A DNA stretch of 47,996 nucleotides, from positions 115,271 through 163,266 of the forward strand of contig NZ_JANZXN010000019.1 in assembly GCF_025629245.1 (NCBI RefSeq). The letters are read 5' to 3'. The notes beneath the pieces are model-generated. The model saw nothing but the letters and a program-made list of their open reading frames with translations. It was not told the origin of the DNA and ran no database searches. Source of the DNA: Natronobiforma cellulositropha (lineage in GTDB: Archaea; Halobacteriota; Halobacteria; Halobacteriales; Natrialbaceae). The translations under genes and the position numbers were made by a program. This document shows, piece after piece, positions 1,795 through 37,219 of the stretch; within the stretch, counting starts at the first letter, position 1; the number at the start of each line of letters is the position of its first letter.

Positions 1795-3096
1795 ATGAAC
1801 GTCACCGTCACCCCCTCCCGGGTCAGCGGCGAGGCGCGAGCACCGCCATCGAAGAGCTACACTCACCGGGCGATTCTCGCCTCCGGCTACGCCGACGAGG
1901 CGACCGTCACCGACGCGCTCTGGAGCGCCGACACCCGCGCGACGGCGCGCGCAGTCGACCTCTACGGCGGGTCCGTCGAACGCGACGAGGCGGGCGTCCT
2001 CGAGATCACCGGCTTCGACGGGCGGCCCGACGTGCCCGCGAACGTGATCGACTGTGACAACAGCGGGACGACGATGCGACTGGTCACCGCGACCGCCGCG
2101 CTCGCCGACGGAGTCACCGTCCTCACCGGCGACGCCTCGCTGCGCTCGAGACCGCAGGGACCGCTGCTCGAGGCGGTCGCCGACCTCGGCGGAGAGGCGA
2201 TCAGCACGCGAGGCAACGGCCAGGCCCCGCTCGTCGTGACGGGACCGGTCGCGGGCGGGTCGGTGTCGATCCCCGGCGACGTCTCCTCGCAGTACATCTC
2301 GGCGCTGTTGATGGCCGGCGCGGTCACCGAGGAGGGAATCGACCTCGAACTCGAGACACAGCTCAAATCGGCCCCCTACGTCGACGTGACGCTCGAGGTG
2401 CTCGAAGACTTCGGCGTGACGGCCGAGAAAACGGCCGACGGCTTCAGCGTCGCGGGCGGGCAGGCCTACCGGCCGGTCGGCGGCGAGTACGCCGTCCCCG
2501 GCGACTTCTCGTCGATCTCGTATCTCGCAGCAGCGGGCGCGGTCGCGGGTGCGGAGTCGGTTCGCGTCGCGGGTGCCCACCCGAGCGCGCAGGGTGACAG
2601 CGCCATCGTCGAGATCCTCGAGCGGATGGGTGCGGACATCGAGTGGGACCACGACGCGGGGACGATCGACGTCGCCCGGAGCGAACTCGAGGGCGTCGAG
2701 GTGTCGGTCGAGGACACCCCCGACCTACTGCCGACGATCGCCACCCTGGGTGCGATCGCCGACGGCGAGACGCACATCGTCGACGCCGAACACGTCCGCT
2801 ACAAGGAGACCGACCGCGTGAGCGCGATGGCCGAGGAACTCGAGAAGATGGGCGTGTCCTCGAGCGAAGAGCGCGACTCGCTGACGATCCACGGCGCGGA
2901 CTCACAGCTGTCGGGTGCGACGGTCGACGGCCGCGGCGACCACCGCATCGTCATGTCGCTCGCGATCGCCGCACTCGTCGCCGAGGGCGAGACGACCATC
3001 CAGGGGAGCGAGCACGTCGACGTCTCCTTCCCCGGCTTCTTCGACGTACTCGAGGGACTCGGTGCACGCGTCGGGACCGGTGAGGAGAGTCACTGA
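1795..3096 (+). CDS. aroA: 3-phosphoshikimate 1-carboxyvinyltransferase (EPSP synthase)
   Basis: Transfers the enolpyruvyl group of phosphoenolpyruvate to shikimate 3-phosphate, the sixth step of the shikimate pathway. The 433-residue product has the family's expected length. Signature segments are visible: [10 protein letters not shown] near the N-terminus (phosphate/PEP-binding Lys), [11 protein letters not shown] near residue 85, [18 protein letters not shown], then RYKETDRV (PEP-binding Lys, Glu, Arg) and [10 protein letters not shown] near the C-terminus. I chose ATG 1795 because family conservation begins right after it; the open frame continues upstream but encodes unrelated sequence. 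aroC, for the next step, lies 4.2 kb downstream on the same strand, separated by two histidine kinase genes on the other strand. The 3' end overlaps the convergent kinase gene by 7 nt. Confidence 0.96.
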
Positions 3097-5120
3097 CCGA
3101 GGTCGAACACCGCGACCTCGTCGAAGACCGCGCTGGCGAGGCGAGAGGGGTCGAGGCTACAGACGAGCAAGCCCACGGAAACCGTCTCACCACACTCGAT
3201 CCGGCGCTCGTCGATCGGGACCCAGGTCTCGCCGTCGCTCGAGTGGTACGCCGTCACCGTCGGGCCGACCCGGTCCAGGCGATACCAGTGGGGACCGTCG
3301 GTCGCCGCCTCGAACTGTGTGCTGACGAGGTAGCGTTCGGAATCGGGCCGCCAGATGACCTCCGACTGGCCACCGCCGATCGCCCCGACGAAGCCGAGCG
3401 GTGCACCCGACTCGGGGCTGGCGCGAATCGCGAGTCCCGCCTTGCTGTAGGTCGTGACGTGCTCGCTCTCTCTGAGGCGGGCGACGATCCGGGCGTCGCC
3501 GTCGACCTCGGTATAGGCGAAGTGACACTCGTCGGTGTCGTACCAGAGGTTCACGCCGCCGCCGTGGACCGTCCACCGGCCGGCCGACTCGTCGTAGCGG
3601 CTCGAGCCCGGCGGGGTCGCTTCGCCGACGTCGACGTGGTCGGTGAGCCGAACGGCGGTGTGTTCGCCCGCGCGGGTGTGCTCTCGAGGGGCGGCGACGA
3701 CGAGACAGTCTTCCACGTCGAAGCGCGCGCCGCCCGCGCGTCCGTCGGTGATCGACAGCGACCAGTCGTGTACTCCGACGACCTGGTTGACGATGGCCAG
3801 GCCGACGCCCGTGCCGCCGTCGGTCGTGGTGTAGCCGTACTCGAGGACCGACTCACGCTCGTGTTCGGCGATGCCGGGACCGTCGTCTTCGACGAAGAAC
3901 CCGGTGTCCGTGACGCCGACGGTGACGTCGACGGTCGTCCCCGCGTGGACGATGGCGTTTTTGAACAGGTTCTCGAGGAGCAACGAGAGGTAGTGCGGGT
4001 CGGCCCAGACGGTCGCCCCGTCAGAAACCCGTGAGTCGAGCGTGGAGCTGTCGACGGAGACGGCATCCCAGGCGGATTCGACCGCCGGGGAGAGTTCGAC
4101 CGGCGCGATCGACGGCTCGTCGAGTTCGGTACGCGCCGTCGTGACCAGGTCGTCGATGAGGTCGCGAAGCTGTTCGAGCGCGGCTCTCGTCTGCTCGAGT
4201 GGCTCTTCCGTCCCGGTTTCGAGCGCGTACTCGAGGTAGCCGTGGGCGATGTTCAGCGGGTTCCTGAGGTCGTGAGCGGCGAAACTCGCGAGGCGCTCGA
4301 GGCGCTGGCGCTGGTAGTGGAGGTCGCGCTCGAGGCGTTTCTCTTCGGTGACGTCACAGCGGACGCCGACGACGCCCTGGACGGTGCCCTCCTCGTCGTG
4401 CCAGGGAAACCGGGAGGTACGCCGCCAGAACGTCTCGTCGTCCTCGACGAACTCGAGGTAGGGCTCGTCACGTTCGAGGATCGGATCGCCGCTCTCGATC
4501 ACGGCGACGTCGGACTCGTGGGCGCGACGCGCTTCCCTCTCGATCGCACTGGAGGAGATTTCGAGTTCGGTCTTCCCGGTCGGGTCGGCCCACATCTCGG
4601 CGCAGGCGCGTTTCGAGAGCCGGAGACAACGGGCGTCGCGGTCTTTGACGTAGAGTTCCAGTGCGGGCTGTTCGAGCAGCGCCTCGAGAATCCGGTGTGA
4701 GTCGTGGTGCGTACGGCTTCGGGCGGCCGTCTCGAGGTGGTCGCGAACGCAGGCCAGGAGCGTCTCACCGGTCGGGTCGGCCGTCGTCGGGAGGTAGGAG
4801 ACACCCGCACCGGCCGCCGCTCGGAGCAGTTCCGGCGTGTCCGTCGGCGGGGTGAAGACGACTGGAGCCGGCGGCGTCTGAGCACGAGCGGCCGCCAGGA
4901 GGTCGGCCGGCGACCCGTCCGGGAGCGAACCACCGCTCACCAGGCAGACTGGACCCGCCGGTGAGTCAGCGTCGAGCAGTTCGCGCGCTGCAGCGATCGA
5001 CGACGCCGTCTCGAGCGAGAGCGCGTCGTCTCTACCGAAGACCGCTCCGAGTTCGGCGTGGACGTGCTCGTCGGTGCCGACGGAGAGGACTGTCCGAGGT
5101 GCCGTGTCGCGACCGGACAT
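3090..5120 (-). CDS. Soluble PAS histidine kinase with C-terminal ConA-like domain
   Basis: A 676-residue predicted cytoplasmic sensor kinase without a signal peptide or membrane segment. In order: a degenerate receiver (about 8-130), a PAS domain (about 145-260), HisKA with the phospho-accepting His283 in the H-box [10 protein letters not shown], and HATPase_c (about 375-470) with N388 in the N-box, DDGPGI and GTGVGLAIV. From about 505 to the end comes a beta-rich domain ([32 protein letters not shown]) resembling DUF1349/concanavalin-A-like domains, which usually occur in secreted carbohydrate-active proteins. The receiver lacks the usual phospho-acceptor Asp: the strand reads [12 protein letters not shown]. 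The gene lies 112 nt downstream of a paralogue of identical layout and ends inside the aroA stop region. A possible TATA-like element (TCTATACGC) precedes it. The output regulator is unknown; no cognate receiver gene is adjacent. Confidence 0.88.
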
Positions 5121-5232
5121 ACTGTTCGCGTATCAGTACGTGTGAGCAAGCGTATAGAGACTGCGGCCATTCGCCGGCGGGGAGAGAAGTTGACAGGGGG
5201 TGCGGGTTGGCCCACCCGCGCCAGCCGAGGCG

Positions 5233-7233
5233 CTAGTACTCGACGACGGAGACGTCCTCGAACACGCTGACGCAGTGGTTCTCCGGGTCGTGACTGCAGA
5301 CTGCCAGCCCGACCGCTGCGGCGTCCTCGAGCGAGAGGGCCCGTTCGTCGATCGGGACCCAGGTCTCGCCGTCGCGAGAGTGGAACGTCGTCACCTGCTC
5401 GCCGGTTCGGTCCAGTCGGAACCACGGGTACGTCTCCGGCCCGGCGGGCAGTTGGCGGCTCGCGATCGGGTCGTCCGGCGTCGGTCGCCAGAGGAGTTCG
5501 GTCGCCGGGCCGCCGGTCATGCCGACGAATCCGAGCGGTGCGCCGGCCCGGGGTTCGCCGCGGATCATCAGGCCTGCTTTCCGGTGTTCGTCACCCTCGC
5601 CGAAGTCCGCGACGCGGGCGACGATCCGGCCGTCGCCGGCGAGTGGCGCGTGGACGAAGTAACACTCGTCGATGTTGCTCCAGACGTTCTCGCCGCCGCC
5701 GTGGACCGTCCACCGGCCGGATCCCTCGTCGTGGTCGACGGTCCCCGCGGGAGTCGCCCCGCCGATGTCGGTGTCCGCACGGAGGGTGACGTTCTCGCCG
5801 TCTCTGAGGTCTCCCGGGGCGGTGACGAGCAGGCAGTTGCTCACCTCGAAGCGCGCGCCACCGATCGACCCGGCGGTGACGTCGACCGCCCAGTCGTGGG
5901 ACTCGGCGATCTGTGCGACGTAGGCGAGACCCATTCCCGACCCGTTCTCGGAACCGGTGTACCCGAAGTCGAACACTTGCTCGCGTTCGTCGTCGGGAAT
6001 GCCGGGACCGTCGTCTTCGACGAAGAACCCGGTCGGCATCGTCCCCACGGTGACGTAGACGTCGGTGCCCACGTGTTGAATCGCGTTGCGAAACAGGTTC
6101 GCGAACAGCTGTCGGAGGAGGCGTTCGTCGGCCGTGATCACCGTCCCATCGGGAACGGCGTTGCGAAGCGTCGCGTCCCTGATCCCAACCTCTGACCAGA
6201 TCTCTTCGATCGTCGTCTGTAGGTCGACCGTCGAGAGCGTGGCGACGCCGGCCTGGTCGCGCGTCATCTCGAGGAGGTCGTCGATGAGGCGTTCGATTCG
6301 AGACAGCGCCCGGGAGACCTCCGCGAACGCGTCGTCGCTGCCGGTCTCGCGTCCGAGTTCGAGGTAGCCGTTCGCGACGTTCAGCGGGTTCCGGAGGTCG
6401 TGTGAGACGAAACTCGCGAACCGGTCGAGGTGTCGCTGCTGGCGTTCGAGTTCGTGCTCCCGGCGTTTCAATTCGGTGATATCGCGCGTGAGACCCATGA
6501 GACCGCAGATCTCGCCCTGTTCGTTTCGCCAGGGAACTTTCGTCGACTCGAGCCAGATCGCGTCGACGTTCGGGATGTCGAGCGCCCACACCTCCTCTTT
6601 CTCGACGATGGGGTCGCCGGTCTCGATCACGTGGAGGTCGTCCTCGTAGGAGTTCCAGGCCTGGTCGCCGATCTCGTGAGCGTACACCTCGGGGTCGGTC
6701 TTCCCGATCGGATCGACCGAGTCGGTATCCGTCCCGACGCCGGGACCGACGCGGACGTGTCTGGCCTCCCGGTCTTTGAAGTAGACGGAGATCGGCAGGT
6801 CGCTCATCATCGACGTGAACATCGCACTCTCGGTCTCGTGGCGACGGCGGCGCTCGCGCAGTTCGATCTCCGCACGCACGCGCTCGAGCAGTCGCTCACC
6901 GTCGTCGTCGAGCGAGCGAGGGAGGTAGGCCACGTCGGCGGCACTGGCCTCGCTCGCGAGTCGGTCGCTACCGCGTTCGGGGTAGAGAATCACTGTGGCG
7001 TGTGGATCGCGCTCACGGATGGCGCGTGCGAGGTCGAGTTCGCTTCCGTCCGTCAGGCCGCCTGCGGCGACGACTCCGTCGGCCGTCTCGAGTGCGTCGA
7101 GTGCGGCGTCGATCGAGGTCGTCGGTTCGATGGCGACGCCGTCGAGCGCGTCGAGGAGAGCGGCACGCTCGCGCGCGCTCGAGTCGCTGTCGGCGTAGAG
7201 TAGCGAGAGTGGGCCGTGGTGACGATCGCCCAT
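5233..7233 (-). CDS. Soluble PAS histidine kinase with C-terminal ConA-like domain (paralogue)
   Basis: A 666-residue paralogue of the neighbouring kinase, same domain order: degenerate receiver (about 8-125), PAS (about 140-255), HisKA with His278 in [11 protein letters not shown], HATPase_c (about 370-465) with N383, DDGPGI and GSGMGLAYV, and a C-terminal DUF1349/concanavalin-like domain (about 500-666; [40 protein letters not shown]). The receiver again lacks the Asp (VVAAGGLTDGS). The ATG at 7233 was chosen because the receiver-like fold begins right there; the same open frame extends about 1.1 kb upstream, antisense to aroC, without recognisable content. It is divergent from aroC with 102 nt between starts, so the two could share control sequences. 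No transmembrane segment is visible, so the signal sensed by the PAS and lectin-like domains should be cytoplasmic, unlike most proteins with this C-terminal fold. Confidence 0.88.
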   Translation of the reverse strand: MGDRHHGPLSLLYADSDSSARERAALLDALDGVAIEPTTSIDAALDALETADGVVAAGGLTDGSELDLARAIRERDPHATVILYPERGSDRLASEASAADVAYLPRSLDDDGERLLERVRAEIELRERRRRHETESAMFTSMMSDLPISVYFKDREARHVRVGPGVGTDTDSVDPIGKTDPEVYAHEIGDQAWNSYEDDLHVIETGDPIVEKEEVWALDIPNVDAIWLESTKVPWRNEQGEICGLMGLTRDITELKRREHELERQQRHLDRFASFVSHDLRNPLNVANGYLELGRETGSDDAFAEVSRALSRIERLIDDLLEMTRDQAGVATLSTVDLQTTIEEIWSEVGIRDATLRNAVPDGTVITADERLLRQLFANLFRNAIQHVGTDVYVTVGTMPTGFFVEDDGPGIPDDEREQVFDFGYTGSENGSGMGLAYVAQIAESHDWAVDVTAGSIGGARFEVSNCLLVTAPGDLRDGENVTLRADTDIGGATPAGTVDHDEGSGRWTVHGGGENVWSNIDECYFVHAPLAGDGRIVARVADFGEGDEHRKAGLMIRGEPRAGAPLGFVGMTGGPATELLWRPTPDDPIASRQLPAGPETYPWFRLDRTGEQVTTFHSRDGETWVPIDERALSLEDAAAVGLAVCSHDPENHCVSVFEDVSVVEY

Positions 7234-7335: not shown

Positions 7336-8487
7336 ATGAACGGCAACCGTTTCGGTCGCCTCTTTCAGGTGACCACCTTCGGTGAGAGCCACGGAGCGGC
7401 GATGGGCTGTACGATCTCCGGCTGCCCCGCCGGTCTCGAACTCGAGGAAGACGACATTCAGGCGGAACTCGACAGACGAAAACCCGGACAGTCGATGATC
7501 ACGACGAGTCGGGGCGAACCCGACGCTGTCTCGATCAAGTCCGGCGTCCAGGACGGCTACACCACCGGGACGCCGATCGGACTCGTCATCCAGAACAAAG
7601 ACGCCCGCTCGGGCAAGTACGAACCGTTCATCACGGCGCCGCGCCCGAGCCACGGCGACTACACCTACTCCGCGAAGTTCGGGACGCGAAACTGGGGTGG
7701 CGGCGGCCGCTCCTCGGCGCGCGAGACCGTCAACTGGGTGGCTGCGGGTGCGGTCGCGAAGAAGATCCTCGCGAGTGAGGGCATCGAGATCAAAGCCCAC
7801 GTCAACCAGATCGGTGACGTGGTCGCTCCCGACGTCAGTTTCGAGGAGATGCTCGAGCACACGGAGGGGAACGCCGTCCGCTGTGCACACCCTGACACCG
7901 CAGCCGAGATGGAGGCACTGATCGGCGAGTATCAGGAGCAGGGAGACTCCATCGGCGGCAGCATCTACTTCGAGGCACAGGGCGTCCCGGTCGGTCTCGG
8001 CGCACCCCGCTTCGATTCGCTCTCCGCGCGACTCGGCCAGGCGATGATGGCGATTCCCGCGGCCACCGCGTTCGAGTTCGGACTCGGCCGGGAAGCCAGG
8101 GAGTACTCCGGCTACGAGCGCAACGACGACTGGGAGTTCGGCGAGGACGGCCACCCGAAACCGGTCGAGAACGACCACGGCGGCATTCAGGGCGGCATCT
8201 CGAGTGGCGAGCCGATCTACGGCGAGGTCACGCTCCACGCGCCGACGTCGATTCCGAAGACGCAGACGACGGTCGACTGGGAGACCGGCGAGGAGAGAGA
8301 AGAGCAGGTGCTCGGCCGCCACGATCCCGTCTTACCGCCGCGGGGCGTCCCCGTCGTCGAGGCGATGCTGGCGCTCACGCTCGTCGATTTCGTGCTCCTC
8401 TCCGGACGGATCACACCCGACCGCCTCGACGGCGAACCCGGAACCTACGACACCGACTACCACCCGAGCAACCCGAAAAACGAGTGA
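7336..8487 (+). CDS. aroC: Chorismate synthase
   Basis: Converts EPSP to chorismate with reduced flavin, the last common step to Trp, Phe and Tyr. The 383-residue product has normal length. Visible family signatures are FGESHGAAMGCTISG near the start, RRKPGQ, then the RPSHGDYTYSAKFG and GGGRSSARETV blocks around residues 105-130, and the Gly-rich segment NDHGGIQGGISSG near 285. The start at 7336 follows the AT-containing stretch TTACTGAAAGCCTAAAT by about 25 nt, which suits a short or absent leader. Together with aroA it forms a split shikimate-pathway cluster; the two kinase genes between them are on the opposite strand. Confidence 0.96.
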   Translation: MNGNRFGRLFQVTTFGESHGAAMGCTISGCPAGLELEEDDIQAELDRRKPGQSMITTSRGEPDAVSIKSGVQDGYTTGTPIGLVIQNKDARSGKYEPFITAPRPSHGDYTYSAKFGTRNWGGGGRSSARETVNWVAAGAVAKKILASEGIEIKAHVNQIGDVVAPDVSFEEMLEHTEGNAVRCAHPDTAAEMEALIGEYQEQGDSIGGSIYFEAQGVPVGLGAPRFDSLSARLGQAMMAIPAATAFEFGLGREAREYSGYERNDDWEFGEDGHPKPVENDHGGIQGGISSGEPIYGEVTLHAPTSIPKTQTTVDWETGEEREEQVLGRHDPVLPPRGVPVVEAMLALTLVDFVLLSGRITPDRLDGEPGTYDTDYHPSNPKNE

Positions 8488-16593: not shown

Positions 16594-19500
16594 ATGCGTA
16601 AGTCGTGGGGACCCCTGGGTGGGTTCGTCCCCGTCGAGTCGAGTCGAATCGTCCTGATAGCACTTCTCGGTGTACTGTTCGTCGGTCTAGCGAGTGTTTC
16701 CGGCGGTGCGGCCGTCGACGACGGTGTCGTTGATCCGGTGGTCCTCGACGAGGACTCGAGCAACGCCACGTTCGTCCTCATCGAGGGGGCGAACGACTCT
16801 CTCGAGCACGTCGTTCCGATAGCGCCGAACGAGACGGCAGCGAACCTCTCTCTGGAGCACTTCACCTCGGGACCGACACCGGAGGAGACGACCAGCAGAG
16901 ACACCAGTGGGTTCACCACGTTCAGCGACAATCCGGCACCGGTGGAGGTGACTGTTCTCCAGCCGGATATGCCAACGCCAGCGACCGGCAACCTGGTCAC
17001 CGAGTGGAAACCGATTCCCGGCGCGACGGTGGATCTCGGGCCAGGGGGTGAGGGAGAGACAGGGTCGGACGGAATCTGGCTCTCTGATCCGCTCTATCCC
17101 GGAGAGTATACAGGAACGGTAGATCTGTCGACCGCTCCGTTTGGTGACCGGCTTACCCGCGGCATCGAACACAGTTTTTCGGTTACCGTCCCCAGTGGCC
17201 TGGACGAAGACCCTGACCCGGTTCCCGTCAGCTATGCTTTTTCGCATGGGTGTGATTTGCCACCGTATCCTCAACACCAGCCGAGTATGGGCTGGTGGGA
17301 ACACAGGGTAGAAAACCAGTGGCCGAACTGGGAGGAAGAGAGCGTCTATATCGACCAGGACGTCGCTGTCGCTGGTGAGCCGGTGACGATCAGGGCGTGT
17401 AACCCCTTCAGGATTCTCGACTACGAACATCGGTGGGAGTTCGACGACGACACGACGGCAACCGGCGAGGAGTTCACGCTGGTCTTCGACGAACCCGGAA
17501 CCTACGACTTCTGGCCGGTCGACGGCCCAACACACGAGACGGAACTCACCGTCGTGAATCTCGAGGTTGAGCGCGCTTTCGGCGACGAGTGGCTGGCCGA
17601 AGCGAGCCAGAACCAGGACTACTACCAGGTCACGTCGACGGAGACCGAACGCAGCCTCACGTCGGTGACCGTCGACGGCGTCGAGGCCGTCGAGGTTGGT
17701 CTAAACGACTTCCGCGCACCGCTCGAGGTGCGCGACGGCCGGCCGGTCGAGGTCGTCGCGGAGTTCGACGATGGCGCAGTGGCTGAGAAGACGACCGACA
17801 GTGCGATGTTCGTCGACCCAGCCTGGGTCGAGACGTTGTCCTCACATTTCTTTATAGAGTCTTCAGACGAGTGGTGTGAACTCGATGGATCGTGGCCCGA
17901 AGGAGATGCGTGTGAACTGTGGATTGCGGGGGACGCGTACGAAGCTCACTGGGCGGGAATTCCAGGAACGGTCGACGATGAGTCGTTCTCTGTTCATGCA
18001 AAAGAAGAGATGATACTCATGGTATTGACACCAACGGGTGACTTAACTGGTCAGACCGAAGTTGGTGCTGGCGTCAGTCTGCTCGGCAAAGGATTCTCAG
18101 TAGAGGGAGAAGAGCAGATGGACTTCGATGGCGTACAGTACCAGGGAGGCGACGGGACGGCCGAAGCGAAACTAGATAGAAAAGTACGACTGCCGAGATG
18201 GCTCGGTGGAGGGCGGTCGGGAGGAGGTGGGGAACCCGTGTACGAGAGAGATGGTATTGGAGGTATCGATGCCAGCGCCCACATCGCCGTGGTGCTCAGA
18301 ATACAGTACGAAAATAACGAAGACATCGAGATAGTGAGCATGAGTGTCGGTGGCGACATCGAGGCATATGGTAAGATCGAAGGGTCCGCTTTCGGTGCAT
18401 CCGCTCACGGCGAGATCTATGGTGGTGGAAGCCCAGACATCTACTTCAAAGAGGGCTCCGGTGGAATTCCGGTAGACGGAGCCGAGGTGGAATTCTACCT
18501 TGGCGTCAGAGGCGGATACAAAGTGTATTTTTGGAGCGGCGATTTCGATGAAGAGCTTCTCGACCTACATCTATATACCGGGAATGTACCGGGCACCAAC
18601 TCGCTCTCGACCCACTCGTTCGAGGGAGGGGCGCTGAACGAACAGACCATCTCGAGGTCTGGCGACGCCGGTGAGAGTACGGAGTGGTCGGTCGTCTCAC
18701 CGACCGGTGCCCAGCCACTCCCCGACGTGCCCGCAGTCGATGCGGGGACGCTGCAACCGCTGTCGTCTGACAGCCCCTCCGTTCTCGGAAGCGATACGGA
18801 CAGACTCACCGACCGCCCCTACGAGGACAGCGAACCATCGATCGCGGCGACGCCCGACGGCCACGCCGTCGTCTGGAGTTCGCTCGAGGAGGGCGCGGCG
18901 GTCGAAGACGGCCACGACATTCGGTTCCGTCACTACGACGAGAGTACCGGCTGGGGTGAGGTCGTCGACCTCACCGACACCGACCGCCACGACTTCGATC
19001 CGACGCTCGTCAGCCGTGCGGACACCGACGAGTTGTTCGCCGTCTGGTCGCGCATCGACGCCGATGCGAGCCAGCTCTCGGGTCCCGAGGAGGCTGCCCC
19101 ACACCTCGAGATCGTCACCGCGCACTTCGACGGCGACACCTGGAGTGAGCCGACGATCGTCAGCGACACCGGCGCCCTCGAGCGGGCACCCGTCGCCGCT
19201 GCGAGCGAGGAGGGCTGGCTCGTCGCCTGGATGCACCACGCCAACGACGACCGCCTCGACATCGAGAACGCCACCGTCGAGTACCGCCTCTTCGACGCGG
19301 ACGCCGACCAGATCCGGGAGGGATCGATCGAGAACGCCTCGCTCCCGGCCGTCGGCAGCCGCGCCGACGGCACGTTCGACCTGGCCTACTTCGAGTCGGC
19401 GGCCAACGTCACCGAGTCCGGAACGCTCGCCCACGGCGCCGTCGACGACGACGGCTTCGACCGCGACGGCGCACACGAGTACGCCCTCGAACAGTACGGC

Positions 19501-22500
19501 GACCACGCCGTCGACGGGGGCGAACTCGTCTGGACCTGGAACGACGGCGGCGAGTCGGCGCTCGAACACGCCGACGGATCGGACGTCCAGCGCCTCGAGA
19601 CCGACCCCGATCTGGCGGGGATCGGCGAACTCGTCTTGCGTGCCGACGGCGACGAGTCGCTGTTGCTCTACCGGGGTGCGCCCGGCTTCCAGAACACGAG
19701 CGACCTGCTGTACCGTCAGGCCGTCGACGGCGAGTGGAGCGGCGACCACCGCTTCGTCGGTGGTCCCGACGAGGACCTGACGATCTGGCAGGCCGACGCC
19801 ATCCTCGGTGACGACGGGTTCACCGCGGCCTACGCCGTCCAGGAGCCGGGTATCGAGAACCGGAACGACGTCTTCGTGACGAGCGAGGCGTTCGCTCCGG
19901 CGTACACCCTCGACGCCGCCGGGCCGACCGACGCGGCCGCAGGCGAGACCGTGACGGTCGACACGACCGTCCGAAACGTCGGTGGCGCCAGCGACGACCC
20001 GGTTGCCATCGTCGTCACCGACGGCGACGACGAACTCACGCGCGAGACCGTCGACGCGCTCGGACACAACGAAACCGTGACGGTCCCACTCGCGGTCACC
20101 GTTCCCGAGAGCGGAACCGTCACCGTCTCGCTCGAGGCGGGCGCGTCCGACGAGTGGTACACGCAGCGGGCCGACCTCCGACTCGGCTCGCCGAACCTGG
20201 TGGTCACCGCCGCCGAGGGTGAGATGCACTCGGAGACGAACGCGACGCTGACCGTCGGTGTCGAGAACCGCGGCGGCGTCAACGTGAGCGCCGTGCCGGT
20301 CCGGATCGACGACGGCGACGGCTGGACGACGAACGTGAGCCTCGACGTCGCCGCAGGGGCGACCGAGACGGCTGCGATTCCGGTCGACCTCTCTGCGTTC
20401 AACACGAGCGCGCTCGACCGCGTGACGATCGATCCCGAGGGCACCGTGCCCGCGGTGACGTCCAGCCCGGCGCTCAGCGAGCTCACGACACGGCTGTTCA
20501 CGCCCGATATCCGTCTCCACCACCCGATCACGTACCAGTCGGTCGAACGCTACGATACCGAAGACGGGACGTACGCGCGTGTGGGCGTCACCAACTACGA
20601 ACCGTTCGCGACGAACGCCACGATTACGGTGACCGACCACGACGACGGGGAGTTCTTGGGCGAGAAGACACTCGAGCTGCCGCCGCTCGAGGGGACGACG
20701 ACACATCTCACGACGGTGTTGGTCCCGCTCTCAGACGTCTCGGTCGACCAGACGCTCCACTTCGACGTGGTCGAACAGTCTGACGCGAGGACGGCGATCG
20801 ACCGTACCGTCGACGAGGTCGACGAGGTCGATACCGAAACACTCGCTGCCATCGATATGCGTGTCTACGACGACCTGACGGGCGAGCCGCTCGAAGACGT
20901 GACCATCACTTCGTTCACGGATTTAGCGACGACGGACGCGAACGGTGAGGCTCGAGTCGAACTGACCTCGATACAGGCACTCATCGTCTCGAAACCGGGC
21001 TACAAAGCGGAGACGCACGAAGTGATCTTCACTAGCGGCTACGAGCTGACAGGAGCCGTACGGCTGTCACCCGACCTCGTCGTCGACTCGGTGGAACTCC
21101 CGGACGGTGTCGAACCGGGTGAGTCAGTCACGATAGACGCTGTCGTTCGAAATAACGCATTCGAGGCGGTCTCGAGTGCCGTCGAGTTCTCGGCTGACGG
21201 TGTCGAAATCGCCTCCGAACGGGTATCGCTGGACGCGAGAGACGAGACGACGGTAACGGTCGAAACGACCGCGCCGATGAACCGATCGGCCGTCGTCTAC
21301 ACGGCCCAGGCAGGTGGTGTCGGTGCTCGGTCGGTGACTGCTGTCGGAGTCGAATCGTCCGGTTCCGGTCCGGTTTCGATCGACACCATCGACACACCGG
21401 ATGCGATCGACGTCGCCTCGACCCACTCGGTTCCGGTGACGGTGACGAACGATGGTTCCGACCGCTTCGTCGGCGTCGGAACCGTCAGTCTCACCGGCTA
21501 CACCGACGGCACACAGCCGATCGGTGCAGCAGTGTTCGACATCGCCGCCGGTGAGACGGCCACTCGAGAGATCGACGTCGTTGCGCCCGACACGGGCGTA
21601 GACGGAGCGTTCGTCGTCGAACTCGCCGGGGACACTGCTAGCGAGGCAGTCACGGTGCGGGAAGGAGGTGAACGGGTGTGGGGAGTCCAGACGGGCGGCC
21701 AGATCGTGAGTTCACCGACGATCGTCGATGGACTGGTCTATATCGGGACGCTCAACAACCAGCTGTTCGCAGTCGATGCCGACACCGGGGAGGGCGTCTG
21801 GGGTGTCACAACGGATGGACCGATCTACTCCTCCCCGACGGTTGCAGACGGCACCGTCTACGTCGGCTCGATGGACGGGGGACTCTACGCGCTCGACGCG
21901 TCGACGGGCGGACTCCAGTGGGCGTACAACACGTTCCAGCCGATCACGTCGTCCCCGACGGTTGCAGACGGGACGGTCTATCTCGGTGGGAACGTCCTGT
22001 ACGCGATCGACGCCGAGACGGGTACCAACGAGTGGGTGTTCTCACGGGAGGGAGCGATCGATTCGTCACCGACTGTCGTCGATGGTACGGTGTACGTCGG
22101 CGCCGGTGCTGGAGCCGACGACGAGGGCCACCTCTACGCGATCGACGCACAGACCGGAACCGAAGTGTGGGAGCTCGAGACCGACGGTGACGTGCTCCCG
22201 TCACAGACGGTCGCAGACGGGACCGTCTACGCAGGAACGGCGGCAGGAACCCTGTATGCGGTCGATGCGAGTTCCGGTGAGATAGTGTGGACGGTCGACA
22301 CCAACACGAGCCTCCTGTCTACACCGACGGTAGCCGACGGGGTCGTCTACGTCGGAACCGGCCTCGCCGACGGGGTCCTCCGCGGGTTGTACGCGATCGA
22401 CGCGGACACGGGCGAACAGCGCTGGGTCGGTGACGGTCACGTCCACAGTACCATGTCGTCGTCACCCACGGTCGCTGGCGGAACGGTGTACGTTGGCGAC

Positions 22501-24414
22501 TTTTCGGGGTACGTCCACGCGTTCGATACCGAAACCGGCGCGTACCACTGGCGCCACGTCGTAAGTGAAGGCGTCGAATCCGCACCGACAGTCGCCGACG
22601 GGACGCTCTACGTCGGCTCACTCAACGGGGTGCTCTACGCGCTGAGTACCGAAGGTGATCACACCAGCGACGACTCCCGGGTCACGCTCGGCACACTCGG
22701 TCACGTCGGAGACATGGCCGAAGAGACGCCCGAATTCTCCCTCGAGATTCTCGAGACGAACGCTCCGGTCGAAGCGGGTGAGACACTGACGGTTACTGCG
22801 ACCGTCGAGAACACCGGCACCGCCGCCGGAGAACAGACGGTGACGCTCGAGGTCGGCGGCGAGGTCCGCGATACACGGACCGTCAGTCTCGACCCCGACG
22901 AGACTGACTCGGTCACACTCGAGTGGAAGACCGGCGACGACGACGCCGGAGACCACGAGGTGACGATCTCGAGCGACGACGACAGCGCGAGCGAACCGAT
23001 CACGGTCGAAGCCGTCGCCGAGGCGGTGTTCGTCGTCGACGCACTCGAGACGAACGCTCCGGTCGAAGCGGGTGAGACGCTGACGGTTACTGCGACCGTC
23101 GAGAACACCGGCACCGCCGCCGGAGAACAGACGGTGGCGCTCGAGGTCGGTGGCGAGGTCCGCGATACACGGACCGTCAGTCTCGACCCCGACGAGACTG
23201 ACTCGGTCACACTCGAGTGGAAGACCGGCGACGACGACGCCGGAGACCACGAGGTGACGATCTCGAGCGACGACGAGACCGTCACCAAGACGGTGGCCGT
23301 CGAACTGCCCCCCGAGAGTGTGTTCGCACTCGAGGGAGTCGACCTCACCACTCCAATCGATGCCGGGGAGACGGTGACGGTGACTGCGACGGTCGAGAAC
23401 GTCGGCGACGCCGCCGGTGAAACGGCTGTGACGCTCGAGGTCGGTGGCGAGGAGTCAGACTCACGGGCTGTTAGCCTCGACCCCGGTGAGACGGACACGG
23501 TCGCGCTCGAGTGGAGGACGGAAACCGCCGGTGAGTACGACCTCACCGTCTCCGTCGGAAACGATAGCACCACCGAGACCGTGGTAGTCGACGAACCAGG
23601 CCAGGCCGAACTCGTCGTGGCCGCGCTCGAGACGAACGCCCCCGTCGAAGCGGGTGACACCCTCACAGTCACCGCAACCGTCGAGAATACCGGCACCGCC
23701 GCCGGGGAACAGACGGTGTCGCTCGAGGTCGGCGGCGAGGTCCGCGACACACGGACCGTCAGCCTCGACCCCGACGAGACTGAAACGGTCACGCTCGAGT
23801 GGGAGACCGGCGACGACGACGTCGGCGACCACGATATCACCGTCTCGAGCGACGACGACAGCGCGAGCGAACCGATCACGGTGGACGCTGTCGCTGAAGC
23901 GGTCTTCGTCGTCGACGCACTCGAGACGAACACCCCAATCGAGACCGGTGAGACGCTGACGGTTACCGCGACCGTCGAGAACACCGGCACCGCTGCGGGC
24001 GAACAGACGGTCATCCTCGAGATCGGCGGCGAGGTCCGCGACGCGCGGACGCTCGTGCTCGAAGCGGATGCGACGAACACAGTCACGCTCGAGTGGGAGA
24101 CGACCACGGCCGACACCGGTGAGTACGACGCAGTCGTCGTGACGGACGACGCCGTCGTCTCCGAACCGGTGACCGTCGACGACAGCGAAGAAGCCGACGG
24201 CATCGACGTGAACGGGATCACGGCGTACGACCCAACCGGCGACGGCCTGTACGTCGACTTCACCGGAGACGGGACGGTCGGGTACGATGACGCCGTACTC
24301 TTCTTCGAAAATCTACAGAGCGAGGCGATTCAGGAGAACATCGAGGCGTTCGACGTGATCGGCGACGGCCGCGTGGGCTTCGCAGACATCGTCGCGGTGT
24401 TCAACATGGCGTAG
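16594..24414 (+). CDS. Giant secreted mosaic protein: propellers, CARDB repeats, dockerin-like end
   Basis: A 2606-residue protein with an N-terminal signal (hydrophobic 18-40, VLIALLGVLFVGLASVSGGA). Later regions, approximately: carboxypeptidase-regulatory-like (119-173); PKD-like (253-319, FDEPGTYDF); a lower-GC region of unknown fold (413-690); a repetitive propeller-like region (736-1096); CARDB/Ig-like domains (1099-1413 and 1492-1690) around another carboxypeptidase-regulatory-like domain (1420-1489, TTDANGEARVEL); an eight-bladed PQQ-type propeller (1695-2019, repeated SSPTVADGTVYVG and LYALDA); five CARDB repeats (2048-2529); and a dockerin-like pair of calcium loops (2539-2606, DFTGDGTVGYDDA and DVIGDGRVGFADI). 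Only four cysteines are apparent, all in the N-terminal quarter. There are many N-glycosylation sequons. No PGF-CTERM, transmembrane anchor or catalytic motif is seen, so it is probably released or held by protein-protein contacts. The role is likely adhesive or scaffolding; the ligand is unknown. Confidence 0.9.
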   Translation: MRKSWGPLGGFVPVESSRIVLIALLGVLFVGLASVSGGAAVDDGVVDPVVLDEDSSNATFVLIEGANDSLEHVVPIAPNETAANLSLEHFTSGPTPEETTSRDTSGFTTFSDNPAPVEVTVLQPDMPTPATGNLVTEWKPIPGATVDLGPGGEGETGSDGIWLSDPLYPGEYTGTVDLSTAPFGDRLTRGIEHSFSVTVPSGLDEDPDPVPVSYAFSHGCDLPPYPQHQPSMGWWEHRVENQWPNWEEESVYIDQDVAVAGEPVTIRACNPFRILDYEHRWEFDDDTTATGEEFTLVFDEPGTYDFWPVDGPTHETELTVVNLEVERAFGDEWLAEASQNQDYYQVTSTETERSLTSVTVDGVEAVEVGLNDFRAPLEVRDGRPVEVVAEFDDGAVAEKTTDSAMFVDPAWVETLSSHFFIESSDEWCELDGSWPEGDACELWIAGDAYEAHWAGIPGTVDDESFSVHAKEEMILMVLTPTGDLTGQTEVGAGVSLLGKGFSVEGEEQMDFDGVQYQGGDGTAEAKLDRKVRLPRWLGGGRSGGGGEPVYERDGIGGIDASAHIAVVLRIQYENNEDIEIVSMSVGGDIEAYGKIEGSAFGASAHGEIYGGGSPDIYFKEGSGGIPVDGAEVEFYLGVRGGYKVYFWSGDFDEELLDLHLYTGNVPGTNSLSTHSFEGGALNEQTISRSGDAGESTEWSVVSPTGAQPLPDVPAVDAGTLQPLSSDSPSVLGSDTDRLTDRPYEDSEPSIAATPDGHAVVWSSLEEGAAVEDGHDIRFRHYDESTGWGEVVDLTDTDRHDFDPTLVSRADTDELFAVWSRIDADASQLSGPEEAAPHLEIVTAHFDGDTWSEPTIVSDTGALERAPVAAASEEGWLVAWMHHANDDRLDIENATVEYRLFDADADQIREGSIENASLPAVGSRADGTFDLAYFESAANVTESGTLAHGAVDDDGFDRDGAHEYALEQYGDHAVDGGELVWTWNDGGESALEHADGSDVQRLETDPDLAGIGELVLRADGDESLLLYRGAPGFQNTSDLLYRQAVDGEWSGDHRFVGGPDEDLTIWQADAILGDDGFTAAYAVQEPGIENRNDVFVTSEAFAPAYTLDAAGPTDAAAGETVTVDTTVRNVGGASDDPVAIVVTDGDDELTRETVDALGHNETVTVPLAVTVPESGTVTVSLEAGASDEWYTQRADLRLGSPNLVVTAAEGEMHSETNATLTVGVENRGGVNVSAVPVRIDDGDGWTTNVSLDVAAGATETAAIPVDLSAFNTSALDRVTIDPEGTVPAVTSSPALSELTTRLFTPDIRLHHPITYQSVERYDTEDGTYARVGVTNYEPFATNATITVTDHDDGEFLGEKTLELPPLEGTTTHLTTVLVPLSDVSVDQTLHFDVVEQSDARTAIDRTVDEVDEVDTETLAAIDMRVYDDLTGEPLEDVTITSFTDLATTDANGEARVELTSIQALIVSKPGYKAETHEVIFTSGYELTGAVRLSPDLVVDSVELPDGVEPGESVTIDAVVRNNAFEAVSSAVEFSADGVEIASERVSLDARDETTVTVETTAPMNRSAVVYTAQAGGVGARSVTAVGVESSGSGPVSIDTIDTPDAIDVASTHSVPVTVTNDGSDRFVGVGTVSLTGYTDGTQPIGAAVFDIAAGETATREIDVVAPDTGVDGAFVVELAGDTASEAVTVREGGERVWGVQTGGQIVSSPTIVDGLVYIGTLNNQLFAVDADTGEGVWGVTTDGPIYSSPTVADGTVYVGSMDGGLYALDASTGGLQWAYNTFQPITSSPTVADGTVYLGGNVLYAIDAETGTNEWVFSREGAIDSSPTVVDGTVYVGAGAGADDEGHLYAIDAQTGTEVWELETDGDVLPSQTVADGTVYAGTAAGTLYAVDASSGEIVWTVDTNTSLLSTPTVADGVVYVGTGLADGVLRGLYAIDADTGEQRWVGDGHVHSTMSSSPTVAGGTVYVGDFSGYVHAFDTETGAYHWRHVVSEGVESAPTVADGTLYVGSLNGVLYALSTEGDHTSDDSRVTLGTLGHVGDMAEETPEFSLEILETNAPVEAGETLTVTATVENTGTAAGEQTVTLEVGGEVRDTRTVSLDPDETDSVTLEWKTGDDDAGDHEVTISSDDDSASEPITVEAVAEAVFVVDALETNAPVEAGETLTVTATVENTGTAAGEQTVALEVGGEVRDTRTVSLDPDETDSVTLEWKTGDDDAGDHEVTISSDDETVTKTVAVELPPESVFALEGVDLTTPIDAGETVTVTATVENVGDAAGETAVTLEVGGEESDSRAVSLDPGETDTVALEWRTETAGEYDLTVSVGNDSTTETVVVDEPGQAELVVAALETNAPVEAGDTLTVTATVENTGTAAGEQTVSLEVGGEVRDTRTVSLDPDETETVTLEWETGDDDVGDHDITVSSDDDSASEPITVDAVAEAVFVVDALETNTPIETGETLTVTATVENTGTAAGEQTVILEIGGEVRDARTLVLEADATNTVTLEWETTTADTGEYDAVVVTDDAVVSEPVTVDDSEEADGIDVNGITAYDPTGDGLYVDFTGDGTVGYDDAVLFFENLQSEAIQENIEAFDVIGDGRVGFADIVAVFNMA
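22735..24180 (+). repeat. Five tandem CARDB-repeat units within the exoprotein gene
   Basis: Units of about 280-300 nt start near 22735, 23029, 23320, 23610 and 23910, each encoding a motif of the form APVEAGETLTVTATVENTG then VSLDPDETDSVTLEW. Units 1 and 2 (22750-22980 and 23044-23274, offset 294 nt) differ at only three positions that I can count over 231 nt. Unit 4 is close but has many synonymous changes; units 3 and 5 are more divergent. This indicates recent duplication or gene conversion of units 1 and 2. Confidence 0.85.
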
Positions 24415-33617: not shown

Positions 33618-34436
33618 TCAGCGATCGCCGAGTTCGCTCAGTTCGACGACCTTCTCGACTTCGCTCCGCAGTTGCGTCGAATCGAACTCGTGGTCCGGGC
33701 GGAGGCTGACGAAGTCGAGAAACTCCCGCGCCGAGAGGAGGTCGACCGAGTCGTAGACCGCGCTCGCGTGTCGAACCGTCTCTCGAGCGCCGATTCTGGG
33801 CTCGAGGACGGCGAGCGCACAGGCCAGGTCGTAGCCGCGGGCCTCGCGCTCGTAACTCTCTCTGATGCGAGTCGCGTCGATGAAGTAGAGGTCGTCCTCA
33901 CACAGGAGGATGTTCTCACCGCGGAGGTCGCCGTGGGCGAGTCCGTGAGCGTGCAGTCGGGCGAGCATGTCGAACAGTTCGGGCGTCCGCGTCCGGAGTT
34001 CGTCGGCGCCGAGGTCCTCGAGCGTCCGGAACTCGGGGAGGTACTCGAGGACGAGCACGCCGAGACCGTTGACCTCGAACGCCTCGATGGGCCGGGGTGC
34101 GTTGAGACCGACCTCGCGCATGCGCACCGTCGCCTCGAACTCGTGTTCGACCATCTGGAGGGGCGTATCGAAGCGGTCGAAGAAGCCCTCGGTGCCCGAG
34201 GAGAATGCCCCGACGTTGCGCCCCGCGGTCAACAGGCCGTGGACCGCGGCGTTCTGCCGGGAGACGATCTTGACGAACCACTCCTCGTCGATCACACACG
34301 GTGTCGAGAGCCAGTTGTCCGCCTCGAGAAACTCGACGCGGACGACCTCGCGGCCGTAGCGCTCCGCCAGCGTGCGGACGACGCGCTCGATGCGCGACCA
34401 CTCGACGGTGCCTCGAGCGAGCTGGCGGATGTCCAT
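33618..34436 (-). CDS. RIO/Bud32-like atypical protein kinase
   Basis: A 272-residue kinase-fold protein of the RIO/KEOPS-Bud32 type. The invariant Lys is probably K56 (EEWFVKIVS), with an acidic partner at E98 or E101 in the MVEHEFEA helix. The catalytic loop is LAHGDLRGENILL (D170, N175), and the metal-binding Asp is D187 in YFIDATR, where typical kinases have DFG. No classical Gly-rich loop is recognisable before K56. The family includes RIO1-type ATPases in ribosome maturation and Bud32 in tRNA threonylcarbamoylation, but the wider group has many orphan members. The gene stands alone between an aldehyde dehydrogenase (same strand) and a divergent membrane protein gene, giving no clue to substrate. 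Confidence 0.82.
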   Translation of the reverse strand: MDIRQLARGTVEWSRIERVVRTLAERYGREVVRVEFLEADNWLSTPCVIDEEWFVKIVSRQNAAVHGLLTAGRNVGAFSSGTEGFFDRFDTPLQMVEHEFEATVRMREVGLNAPRPIEAFEVNGLGVLVLEYLPEFRTLEDLGADELRTRTPELFDMLARLHAHGLAHGDLRGENILLCEDDLYFIDATRIRESYEREARGYDLACALAVLEPRIGARETVRHASAVYDSVDLLSAREFLDFVSLRPDHEFDSTQLRSEVEKVVELSELGDR

Positions 34437-34571
34437 GCCGTGGCTGTTGGTAACCCACTGTTATAGGCGTCCCGAAGTTTTCGGTCGCTGAGTCGGTCCG
34501 AGAGACGGGAGACGTCCCACAGTAACATCATTAACATTTTACACACCGGGCGTGAATCAGCTGGCAGACGA

Positions 34572-35777
34572 ATGTACGCAATCGACAATCTGAGTGACGC
34601 GATAGACGTCACTCGAGACCGGCTGACGCCGTTCGACCTGTGGATGTGGGTGCGCCTCGCGATCGTCGTCTTCTTCATTGGCGGGGTGGGCCTGGGTGTC
34701 CCGACGTTCGGGGGCGACCTGAGCGGCTTCGACGAGCCGGGCGAGGACATCGAGACCAACGGTGAGGCAGAGGAGCTCGACTTCGAGGAGGCGACGGGAA
34801 TCAGTGAGAATCAGCTCCTCGGGGCGTTCCTGATCGTGTTCGCCCTCGTCGTCTTCTTCGGACTGCTCTACATCGTCCTCTCGGCGATCATGGAGTTCGC
34901 CCTCGTCGAATCGCTTCGCTCCGAGGAGGTCCACGTGAGACGCTACGCGAAGGAGAACCTCGGACGGGGACTCCGTCTCCTCGGCTTCCGGATCGGTCTC
35001 TGGATCGTCTTCGGCGTCGTCGGAGTCGCGACGTTCTTCCTCGGCGCGCTCGTCGTTCTCGGATCGATCGACGAGGTCGGTGCGGCCTCACTCGGCGCCC
35101 TGCTCGTCGTGTTCGTCCTCGTGATCGGTCTCTACCTGCTGTTCGCAACGATCATGAAACTGACCACCGAGTTCGTCGTCCCGATCATGTTACTCGAGGA
35201 ACGCGGCGTCCTCAGCGCGTGGAGCCGCTTCTGGCCGACGCTCACCGGTTCCTGGAAGGAGTATCTGGTCTACATCGTCCTCGTCGTCATCATCCAGATC
35301 GCCCTCGGCATCGCCGTCACCATCCTCGCGTTTATCGCCGGTCTCGTGATCGCGATTCCGGTGCTCGTCGTCGCCGTCCTCCTAGGGCTCTTCGGCGGGA
35401 CGCCCGGAATCGTCCTCGCCGTCGGTATCGCCCTCCTCGGCTTCCTCTTCTGGCTCCTCGTCTACTCGTTCATCGAGGTGCCAGTGGTCGCCTACGTCCG
35501 CTACTACGCCCTCCTGTTGCTCGGCGACACGAACGACACCCTCGACCTCATCCCCGACCGCCGCGCACGCGCTCGAGCGGCCGGTGACGACGCTGGCGGC
35601 GCTGGCGGCGCCGGCGGCCCGGAGCGCGAACCGAGCGCCTGGGACCGCGAGGACGACGGCCGCGACGACGGCTGGGACTCCTCGAGTAGCTGGGACGACC
35701 GCGACGACAGTAGTTCCAGTTGGGACGACCGCGACGACGATAGGTCGGGCTGGGACGACCGCGACGACCGGCGCTGA
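34572..35777 (+). CDS. Polytopic membrane protein with WDDRDD-repeat tail
   Basis: A 401-residue protein. After a short cytoplasmic-looking start there is a first membrane segment (about 27-47, MWVRLAIVVFFIGGVGLGV), then a polar loop, and segments at about 84-113, 138-162, 170-195, 222-260 and 262-305. The last 70 residues are soluble, with a Gly/Ala run (about 338-345) and then four spaced WDDRDD motifs ending WDDRDDRR. The core is a haloarchaeal membrane family of unknown function; the tail is low-complexity. Its start is divergent from the kinase gene with 135 nt between, which includes an AT-rich ACATCATTAACATTTTACAC (34526-34545) that may contain the promoter. Confidence 0.82.
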   Translation: MYAIDNLSDAIDVTRDRLTPFDLWMWVRLAIVVFFIGGVGLGVPTFGGDLSGFDEPGEDIETNGEAEELDFEEATGISENQLLGAFLIVFALVVFFGLLYIVLSAIMEFALVESLRSEEVHVRRYAKENLGRGLRLLGFRIGLWIVFGVVGVATFFLGALVVLGSIDEVGAASLGALLVVFVLVIGLYLLFATIMKLTTEFVVPIMLLEERGVLSAWSRFWPTLTGSWKEYLVYIVLVVIIQIALGIAVTILAFIAGLVIAIPVLVVAVLLGLFGGTPGIVLAVGIALLGFLFWLLVYSFIEVPVVAYVRYYALLLLGDTNDTLDLIPDRRARARAAGDDAGGAGGAGGPEREPSAWDREDDGRDDGWDSSSSWDDRDDSSSSWDDRDDDRSGWDDRDDRR

Positions 35778-35833
35778 GGCGGATCGCTCGCGTCGCCGGT
35801 GGGCTTATTTCTCGCGTCGGTGAGTACTCGCGT

Positions 35834-36976
35834 ATGGACTTCGAGCTACCCGACGAACACCGGATGATCCGGGACACCGTCCGGGAGTTCTGTGTGGCGG
35901 AGATCGAACCGATCGCCCAGGAGATCGAAGACGACCACCGGTTTCCGGCGGGCGTGTTCGACCAGCTCGCCGACCTCGACGTGATGGGCGTGCCGGTGAG
36001 CGAGACCTACGGCGGTCTCGGCGGCGATCAGCTGATGTACGCGCTCGTCACCGAAGAACTCGGGCGGGTGTCGGGGTCGATCGGTCTCTCCTACGCCGCA
36101 CACGTCTCACTGGCGTCGAAACCGATCGAACTGTTCGGCACCGACGAGCAGAAAGAGCGGTGGCTCAGGCCGCTCGCGGAGGGCGAGTATCTCGGCGGGT
36201 GGGCACTCACCGAGCCCGAGAGCGGCTCTGACGCCTCGAACATGGCGACGGCCGCGACGCCGGAGGGCGACGGGTGGGTGCTCTCGGGGACGAAGCAGTT
36301 CATCACGAACGCCTCGGTCGCGGGGTCGATCCTCGTCAAGGCGGTGACCGACCCCGACGCGGGCTACGACGGCATCTCGACGTTCATCGTCGACCCGCGC
36401 GCCGACGACGGCTTCGAGGTGACCGCCGAGTGGGAGAAGATGGGACTCAACGCCTCGCCGACCTGTGAGATCGTCTTCGACGACTGCTACCTGCCCGCAG
36501 AGCGCTTACTCGGCGAGGAAGGTGCGGGCTGGGAACAGACCAAGAAGACCCTCGAGGGCGGGCGCATCTCGATCGCCGCACTGTCGACCGGTCTCGCGCA
36601 AGGCGCATTCGACCACGCCCGCGAGTACGCCGGCGAGCGCGAACAGTTCGGCCAGCCGATCGCGGAGTTCGACGCCATCCGGGACACGCTCGTCGACATG
36701 CACCGGAAGATCGAGCGCTCGAGGCTCCTGACCCACCGTGCCGCCAGCCAGTACGACCGCGGCCGGTCGGTGACCCGGGAGTCCGCGCTGGCGAAACTCG
36801 AGGCCAGCGAGAGCGCCCGCGAGGTCGCCGAAAAGTCCGTGCAGGTCCTCGGCGGCTACGGCTACACCACGGACTTCGCCCCCCAGCGCTTCTACCGCGA
36901 CGCGAAACTGATGGAGATCGGTGAGGGAACGAGCGAGATCCAGCACCTCGTCATCGGCCGCGAACTCGGCCTGTGA
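35834..36976 (+). CDS. Acyl-CoA dehydrogenase
   Basis: A 380-residue flavoprotein that oxidises acyl-CoA to 2-enoyl-CoA. The three-domain pattern is clear: N-terminal helices (DEHRMIRDTVREFC), the beta domain with GGWALTEPESGSDAS and GTKQFITNAS, and C-terminal helices with EGGRISIAALSTGLA, EYAGEREQFGQPI, and the FAD-binding GGYGYTTDFAPQRFYRDA. The catalytic base is Glu364 in GEGTSEIQ, as in short- and medium-chain enzymes. The start is the ATG at 35834. A two-helix membrane protein follows 3 nt after its stop. Substrate (fatty acyl, branched-chain acyl) is not resolvable by sequence alone. Confidence 0.93.
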   Translation: MDFELPDEHRMIRDTVREFCVAEIEPIAQEIEDDHRFPAGVFDQLADLDVMGVPVSETYGGLGGDQLMYALVTEELGRVSGSIGLSYAAHVSLASKPIELFGTDEQKERWLRPLAEGEYLGGWALTEPESGSDASNMATAATPEGDGWVLSGTKQFITNASVAGSILVKAVTDPDAGYDGISTFIVDPRADDGFEVTAEWEKMGLNASPTCEIVFDDCYLPAERLLGEEGAGWEQTKKTLEGGRISIAALSTGLAQGAFDHAREYAGEREQFGQPIAEFDAIRDTLVDMHRKIERSRLLTHRAASQYDRGRSVTRESALAKLEASESAREVAEKSVQVLGGYGYTTDFAPQRFYRDAKLMEIGEGTSEIQHLVIGRELGL

Positions 36977-36979
36977 ACG

Positions 36980-37210: not shown

Positions 37211-37219
37211 TCGGACGGG

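Follow-up and report, generated by a model that had tools for sequence, protein, structure and literature searches.

The window analysed here, a stretch of 47,996 nucleotides from the haloarchaeon Natronobiforma cellulositropha (contig NZ_JANZXN010000019.1, positions 115,271 to 163,266), carries near its left end a tandem pair of genes encoding histidine kinases, each with an additional domain at the C-terminus, behind the catalytic core. Kinase A (P0001, 676 residues) is encoded at 3090-5120 of the minus strand (coding sequence 3093-5120, stop codon 3090-3092) and kinase B (P0002, 666 residues) at 5233-7233 of the same strand (coding sequence 5236-7233, stop codon 5233-5235), with both assignments based on open reading frames and Pfam matches. 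The two genes point in the same direction, B lying upstream of A across a gap of 112 bases. Their products are 42% identical over 674 aligned positions, a similarity that runs nearly from end to end and includes the C-terminal domain.

The catalytic core is complete in both proteins. The Pfam cut-offs are 23.1 bits for PAS_4, 26.9 for HisKA, 26.4 for HATPase_c and 32.4 for DUF1349, and all domain coordinates that follow are on the minus strand. In kinase A, a PAS_4 domain (residues 156-262, 4335-4655, 28.2 bits) is followed by HisKA (residues 274-331, 4128-4301, 35 bits), with the phospho-acceptor His283, and by HATPase_c (residues 374-469, 3714-4001, 55.3 bits), in which the N-, G1- and G2-box residues are present. 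In kinase B, the corresponding domains are PAS_4 (residues 146-257, 6463-6798, 32.2 bits), HisKA (residues 270-329, 6247-6426, 50.9 bits), in which His278 aligns with His283 of A, and HATPase_c (residues 369-464, 5842-6129, 58.4 bits). His283 is invariant in 11 aligned full-length kinases, the N, G1 and G2 boxes of HATPase_c are visible in alignments, and both A and B are intact at the catalytic residues that were checked. The highest 19-residue hydropathy means are only 1.31 (A) and 0.98 (B), so neither protein is expected to have a membrane segment; furthermore, no twin-arginine translocation (TAT) or signal family was found among the Pfam matches of either kinase. The preliminary description of this DNA, made from the sequence alone, had placed two soluble kinases with complete HisKA and HATPase regions at 3090-7233, and the exact coordinates, the Pfam matches and the hydropathy values agree with it.

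Ahead of the PAS domain, both proteins appear to have a receiver-like domain. In the full-length AlphaFold2 model of kinase A, the first ~130 residues form alternating strands and helices, and we infer a REC-like alpha/beta domain at approximately residues 5-130 (4731-5108); the equivalent region of kinase B (approximately residues 5-125, 6859-7221) was located by alignment to A, and its fold is predicted from the A model. Response_reg gave no Pfam match at E ≤ 1 in either kinase. An aspartate stands at the receiver phospho-acceptor column in 11 of 46 family members (described below), in a region that aligns poorly, and kinase A has a glycine at this column. The full-length model (predicted local distance difference test score (pLDDT) 77, predicted template modelling score (pTM) 0.45) shows domain order and not packing. 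Its matches in the PDB are histidine kinases, with 3o12, a structure resembling the tail, at rank 47.

The C-terminal domain

The tail of kinase A is predicted to be a concanavalin-like beta-sandwich. This domain (residues 505-676, 3093-3608) passes the DUF1349 (PF07081) cut-off with 33.9 bits. The DUF1349-like domain of kinase B (residues 500-666, 5236-5736) scores 22.5 bits and falls below it, as does a named relative, L134 (26.1 bits); however, the B domain is 48% identical to that of A, which at the level of sequence makes their homology clear. The tail of A was modelled with a 14-row alignment consisting of the window domains, B among them, and relatives from named records. The resulting model is all beta (mean pLDDT 91.9, pTM 0.89), and its best structural match in the PDB is 3mep (Z 21.6, 168 residues aligned, root mean square deviation 2.2), followed by 3o12 (Z 21.4, 172 residues, 2.3), which we take to be yeast Ree1/YJL217W. 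There is a gap below these two, the third match having a Z of 18.0. These are followed by GH43 beta-xylosidases (Z 15.5-18), in most cases aligned by their C-terminal part, by CBM66 (Z 13.8-14.6) and, at Z of approximately 14 and below, by GH16-type glucanases. Sequence searches of the PDB with single domains returned nothing notable, and a profile search reached 3mep only at E 0.52; it was structure comparison that recovered this relative. The preliminary description had proposed that the catalytic core is followed by a concanavalin-like sandwich of DUF1349 type, for which a structure comparison had been called for, and the Pfam match (above the cut-off in A only), the model and the match to 3mep bear it out for the tail of A.

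This arrangement resembles several known systems in part. Kinases A and B are similar to the REC-HisK class, the haloarchaeal soluble REC-PAS-HisKA-HATPase kinases of Galperin et al. (2018, PMC5847659), in having a putative receiver-like N-terminus, PAS, HisKA and HATPase_c domains and no membrane segment. Some REC-HisK receivers are likewise described in that article as missing the phospho-acceptor aspartate. However, the parts of it consulted describe the class as ending with HATPase, while a beta-sandwich follows here, and the terms DUF1349, concanavalin, lectin and carbohydrate are absent from its main text (its supplements were outside the search). Kinase A shares its tail fold with the DUF1349 proteins 3mep and 3o12 and scores above the Pfam cut-off, but in the kinases it forms the tail and has conserved residues of its own, and in kinase B it scores below the cut-off. 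The overall sandwich is also that of GH43_C2 and CBM66; unlike in those modules, there is no match to GH43_C2 (PF17851) at E ≤ 1 in either kinase, no export signal was seen and no glycosidase is attached.

Among kinases with a domain behind the ATPase, CheA has a beta P5 domain directly behind its CA (ATPase) domain, which couples the kinase to its regulators. CheA combines an HPt P1 domain with this CheW-like P5, and neither was matched by Pfam in A or B, which instead have HisKA and a concanavalin-like sandwich. Hybrid histidine kinases also carry an added domain behind HATPase, but theirs is a REC or HPt that joins in phosphotransfer; there is no Pfam match to either at the C-terminus of A or B. 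No description of kinases with a DUF1349 tail was found in the open-licence literature, supplementary tables being outside the search. Kinases A and B are ordinary haloarchaeal soluble kinases with an unusual, conserved extra domain, and belong to a family that we found described nowhere.

Distribution and origin of the tailed kinases

A scan of 391 haloarchaeal genomes found domain matches in 64. The matches that were fetched yielded 114 frames with the domain: at least 46 kinases, from 24 genomes, and 68 non-kinase frames. The number of kinases is a lower bound, with at most nine candidates scored per genome and with 17 matches (E 9.8e-28 or weaker) lying outside the fetched and classed set; the weakest kinase found has an E-value of 1.5e-31. 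The domain is at the C-terminal end, behind HATPase, in 46 of 46 kinases. Its spacing is nearly constant: 43-53 residues separate the GGARF motif of HATPase from the first tryptophan of the domain in 44 of the 46, and 60 and 85 residues in the others. In the window's genome a third such kinase lies on another contig, in addition to A and B, and there are two non-kinase copies of the domain; two other genomes (G344 and G041) have four such kinases each. Named carriers include Halosimplex carlsbadense, H. pelagicum, H. salinum, Natrialba swarupiae, Natronoglomus mannanivorans and Halovivax sp. KZCA124. The preliminary description took the shared order of A and B as a sign that the architecture is maintained rather than a single accidental fusion, and this proved correct. 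It had also called the architecture unusual, which applies in that the literature searched holds no description of it, but not in the sense of rarity, as it defines a lineage of at least 46 members.

Scanning genome contigs with a 10-row alignment returned ten named loci, eight of them archaeal and with kinases (one locus with two) and two bacterial and with non-kinase proteins. A single-sequence scan of the same contigs produced no match, and an alignment containing the full set of 46 domains proved too diverse for scanning. Among plasmids, 224 records matched kinase A, but in none did the match cover 80% of the protein. In a sample of 392 genomes from the archaeal phylum, 13 matched, again with at most nine candidates scored in each; one of these genomes, G681, with its match in a 349-residue frame, lies outside the class. 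The census of the fusion covers the haloarchaea and this phylum sample, and its absence from bacteria is not claimed.

The non-kinase copies of the domain are found in a different setting. A Pfam scan of ten of the 68 non-kinase frames identified three GH5 proteins with PKD, one GH81 protein with CBM56 and one frame with a fibronectin type III domain; GH43_C2 was matched by two of the ten. One GH5 frame carrying the domain has a weak TAT match, and 8 of 20 plasmid records with a domain match are annotated as pectate lyase. The earlier statement that such domains normally belong to secreted carbohydrate-active proteins fits these relatives. A separate case was seen in a Chthoniobacter metagenome-assembled genome (L142:762-2297), where a 512-residue frame has a DUF1349-type domain at its end and a start that resembles, by eye, an anti-sigma factor; this is perhaps another signalling-type protein with this fold. 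Four more domain copies are present on a 1407-residue frame at that locus.

The kinase cores are consistent with one origin of the fusion. In a quick tree of the core, built without partial frames in L146, L160 and L162, a single branch (Shimodaira-Hasegawa-like approximate likelihood ratio test (SH-aLRT) 96) parts the 46 carriers from 11 near kinases without the domain, while shuffled labels need approximately 10 changes. The 11 outgroup kinases were drawn from the best matches in six genomes, wherever the locus had been fetched; all of them stop within approximately 30 residues of the core. The domain tree has several long branches, and in it kinase and non-kinase copies need two changes, not one. 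The tail is under purifying selection: across 17 close pairs, which are not independent, the ratio of nonsynonymous to synonymous substitution rates (dN/dS) is 0.07-0.48 for the tail and 0.05-0.32 for the core, and the tail ratio is below that of the N-terminal domain in 14 pairs, tied in one and above in two. Based on the one-branch core tree, purifying selection, near-constant spacing and the kinase-typical residues described below, a domain resembling a carbohydrate module was probably fused once and then reshaped.

Some members of the family have lost catalytic residues but not the tail. According to one automatic alignment, at least one of four catalytic positions is altered in 9 of the 46 kinases, and the phospho-acceptor histidine is kept in 41 and lost in five (Q, Q, Q, E and T), all of which retain the tail. 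These five are encoded at L057:4033-6315, L066:6177-8480, L069:4418-6469, L070:10012-12069 and L071:10012-12522, and all except L066 lie directly beside a paralogue with an intact histidine. The last three form one orthologous group; their frames are open, with dN/dS, on few changes, of 0-0.27 in the PAS and N-terminal part, 0.46-0.95 in the core and 0.24-0.57 in the tail. Because members without the histidine keep the tail beside intact paralogues, it is suggested that the tail serves something beyond the catalysis of its own carrier, which might be assembly with a partner kinase.

Possible roles of the tail

The 46 kinase copies of the domain were compared with 79 non-kinase haloarchaeal copies (numbering as in kinase A). 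Ten positions are typical of the kinases (percentage in kinase copies versus non-kinase copies): W516 (91 versus 1), R544 (76 versus 1), S559 (87 versus 1), G579 (98 versus 1), E587 (89 versus 5), T623 (89 versus 11), D637 (96 versus 1), Q638 (83 versus 16), R639 (83 versus 0) and V669 (89 versus 10). D637 is thus present in 44 of 46 kinase copies and R639 in 38. As exceptions, kinase B has an arginine at 559, and A and B both have a glutamate at 638. Common to both sets are G562, R566, W590, R591, W612, R614, S627, D629, G630 and W633. The four last residues, from the DGETW region, occur in 85-100% of kinase copies and 89-97% of non-kinase copies. The preliminary description had read the motifs shared by A and B as a mark of their architecture. 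The D-(Q/E)-R part just after DGETW is kinase-typical; DGETW itself is a feature of the domain family as a whole, non-kinase copies included, and so does not mark the kinase architecture. Most kinase copies depart from the non-kinase consensus at 543, 544, 547 and 559, and the consensus aspartates at 524, 530 and 542 are kept in only 17, 10 and 12 of the 46, respectively; kinases A and B are among those that keep Asp530 and Asp542, like non-kinase copies.

The explanation that we tentatively prefer gives the tail a role in regulation or docking: in these orphan cytoplasmic kinases it may be a module placed after the ATPase, fused once and since reshaped. The sandwich would occupy a fixed position, set against either the CA domain or a partner. 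It would bind a different protein or a second chain from the family, and such binding would control when the core phosphorylates itself or its partner, by analogy with the P5 domain through which CheA is coupled to its regulators. The usual input would come from the opposite end, where the REC-like and PAS domains are located. The output would most likely be phosphotransfer to an unlinked receiver protein, because, in the account consulted, most archaeal response regulators are receivers that stand alone or are joined to PAS/GAF domains (PMC5847659). The docking explanation draws on the constant C-terminal location of the domain, its near-constant spacing from the CA domain, the single branch in the core tree, its low dN/dS and the ten kinase-typical positions, a pattern that would be expected of a new protein-facing surface; a role in scaffolding or heteromer formation would suit the members without the histidine, as these keep the domain and four of the five lie beside an intact paralogue.

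Several observations weigh against a docking module. With its pTM of 0.45, the full-length model does not establish that the domain packs on the CA domain; glycanases carry the nearest non-kinase relatives, and this favours a ligand over a protein; and kinase-specific conservation would equally fit a changed small-ligand pocket. The tail has a higher dN/dS than the core in 10 of the 17 close pairs, a lower one in six and an equal one in one; in the three aligned pseudokinases the tail ratio is 0.24-0.57, on few changes. No partner protein is known. Specifically, gene clustering around 41 loci returned no partner family, besides the kinase itself, in more than 5 of the 24 genomes, and no family recurs in the 82 immediate flanks, where each of the 25 families listed (of 82) is found in at most three.

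Close behind this explanation in likelihood is an intracellular saccharide sensor, in which the sandwich would keep a carbohydrate-type face, sense a cytosolic sugar nucleotide, sugar acid or lipid-linked glycan and signal to the CA domain. What points to sugar binding by the tail is family resemblance: the fold matches GH43 xylosidase C-terminal domains and CBM66, and non-kinase relatives are located on GH5 (3 of 10 scanned), GH81/CBM56 (1 of 10) and pectate-lyase-annotated proteins (the 8 of 20 plasmid records). R566, W590, R591, W612 and R614 are shared by the kinase and non-kinase sets, and some kinase copies, A and B among them, still have Asp530 and Asp542; the low retention of the consensus aspartates and the departures at 543, 544, 547 and 559 in most kinase copies argue in the opposite direction. 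A strong non-kinase copy is commoner in genomes that have the kinases (7 of 24 versus 35 of 367, Fisher p 0.009, with ancestry ignored, classes counted by hand and unfetched matches taken as non-kinase). Some neighbours are of sugar type, such as a GFO/IDH/MocA oxidoreductase gene near the third kinase of the window's genome and epimerase-family and DHDPS-family genes near L035, but no sugar gene is a consistent neighbour, and the pair in the window lies between aroA and aroC.

An improbable alternative is that the sandwich is a passive cap, which would stabilise the CA domain without binding anything and be kept because the fused protein folds through it. The near-constant linker, purifying selection and the position at the very end of the protein would all be expected of a cap; nevertheless, the 11 near kinases that end close to the core manage without the domain, the conserved polar and charged residues E587, D637, R639, T623 and S559 exceed the needs of a cap, and the domain is retained in pseudokinases. 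It is most improbable that A and B are secreted or surface kinase-like proteins whose sandwich binds external glycans. Although relatives of the domain are found on enzymes of secreted type, A and B have neither a hydrophobic segment nor a TAT or signal family in Pfam, and an ATP-dependent core combined with PAS belongs inside the cell.

We also consider, as a rather doubtful but specific possibility, that a lectin-type sandwich was taken once from a glycanase-type module and might now serve within the cell as an input located on the ATPase side, where it would read a cytosolic saccharide (sugar nucleotide or lipid-linked glycan) and gate the core from behind; kinase and pseudokinase paralogues, often in tandem, would share the module and act as heteromers. 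Histidine kinases wired in this manner would be new to the literature. If the tail does have a signalling role, a fold of the carbohydrate-module kind would have been recruited for signalling inside the cell, at a place behind the ATPase that is empty in the related kinases examined. Haloarchaea hold many soluble kinases, and a family defined by its tail offers a handle on them, with residues to mutate and ligands and partners to screen. Few archaeal pathways of such kinases have been characterised, according to the portion consulted of one article (PMC6944256).

Gene neighbourhood and other features of the window

The kinase pair in the window is flanked by two genes on the plus strand. Convergent with kinase A is aroA (EPSP synthase, 1795-3096, Pfam EPSP_synthase 359.2 bits), the 3' end of which overlaps the end of the kinase A gene by 7 bases. 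Divergent from kinase B is aroC (chorismate synthase, 7336-8487), an open reading frame whose name was read from the sequence. An aroC-like gene also adjoins the closest homologue, L035 in genome G344. The Chorismate_synt family of Pfam occurs in 2 of the 82 flanking genes, and the aroC of the window was read from its sequence as one of the two. By eye, a TATA-like stretch precedes the ATG of each kinase gene by approximately 30-35 bases, so each may have its own promoter.

Across the 41 loci and their 82 flanks, no sugar gene or response-regulator gene is consistently adjacent to the kinases, and REC, HPt and CheW are absent from the 25 families listed. A CheC-like protein encoded on the opposite strand (L042:5725-6315) adjoins one family member; it was seen once, and a phosphatase link is possible. 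A tryptophan-halogenase-family gene (L034:4784-6352) is located near the third kinase of the window's genome.

Elsewhere in the window, positions 33621-40116 contain four genes with homologues around the kinases L040 and L053, which are relatives of the genome's third kinase; this segment itself has no such kinase, the third kinase being on another contig. At 16738-24411, a 2558-residue frame combines seven CARDB stretches with matches to PQQ-type beta-propellers and, weakly, to PKD; it perhaps encodes a large surface protein.

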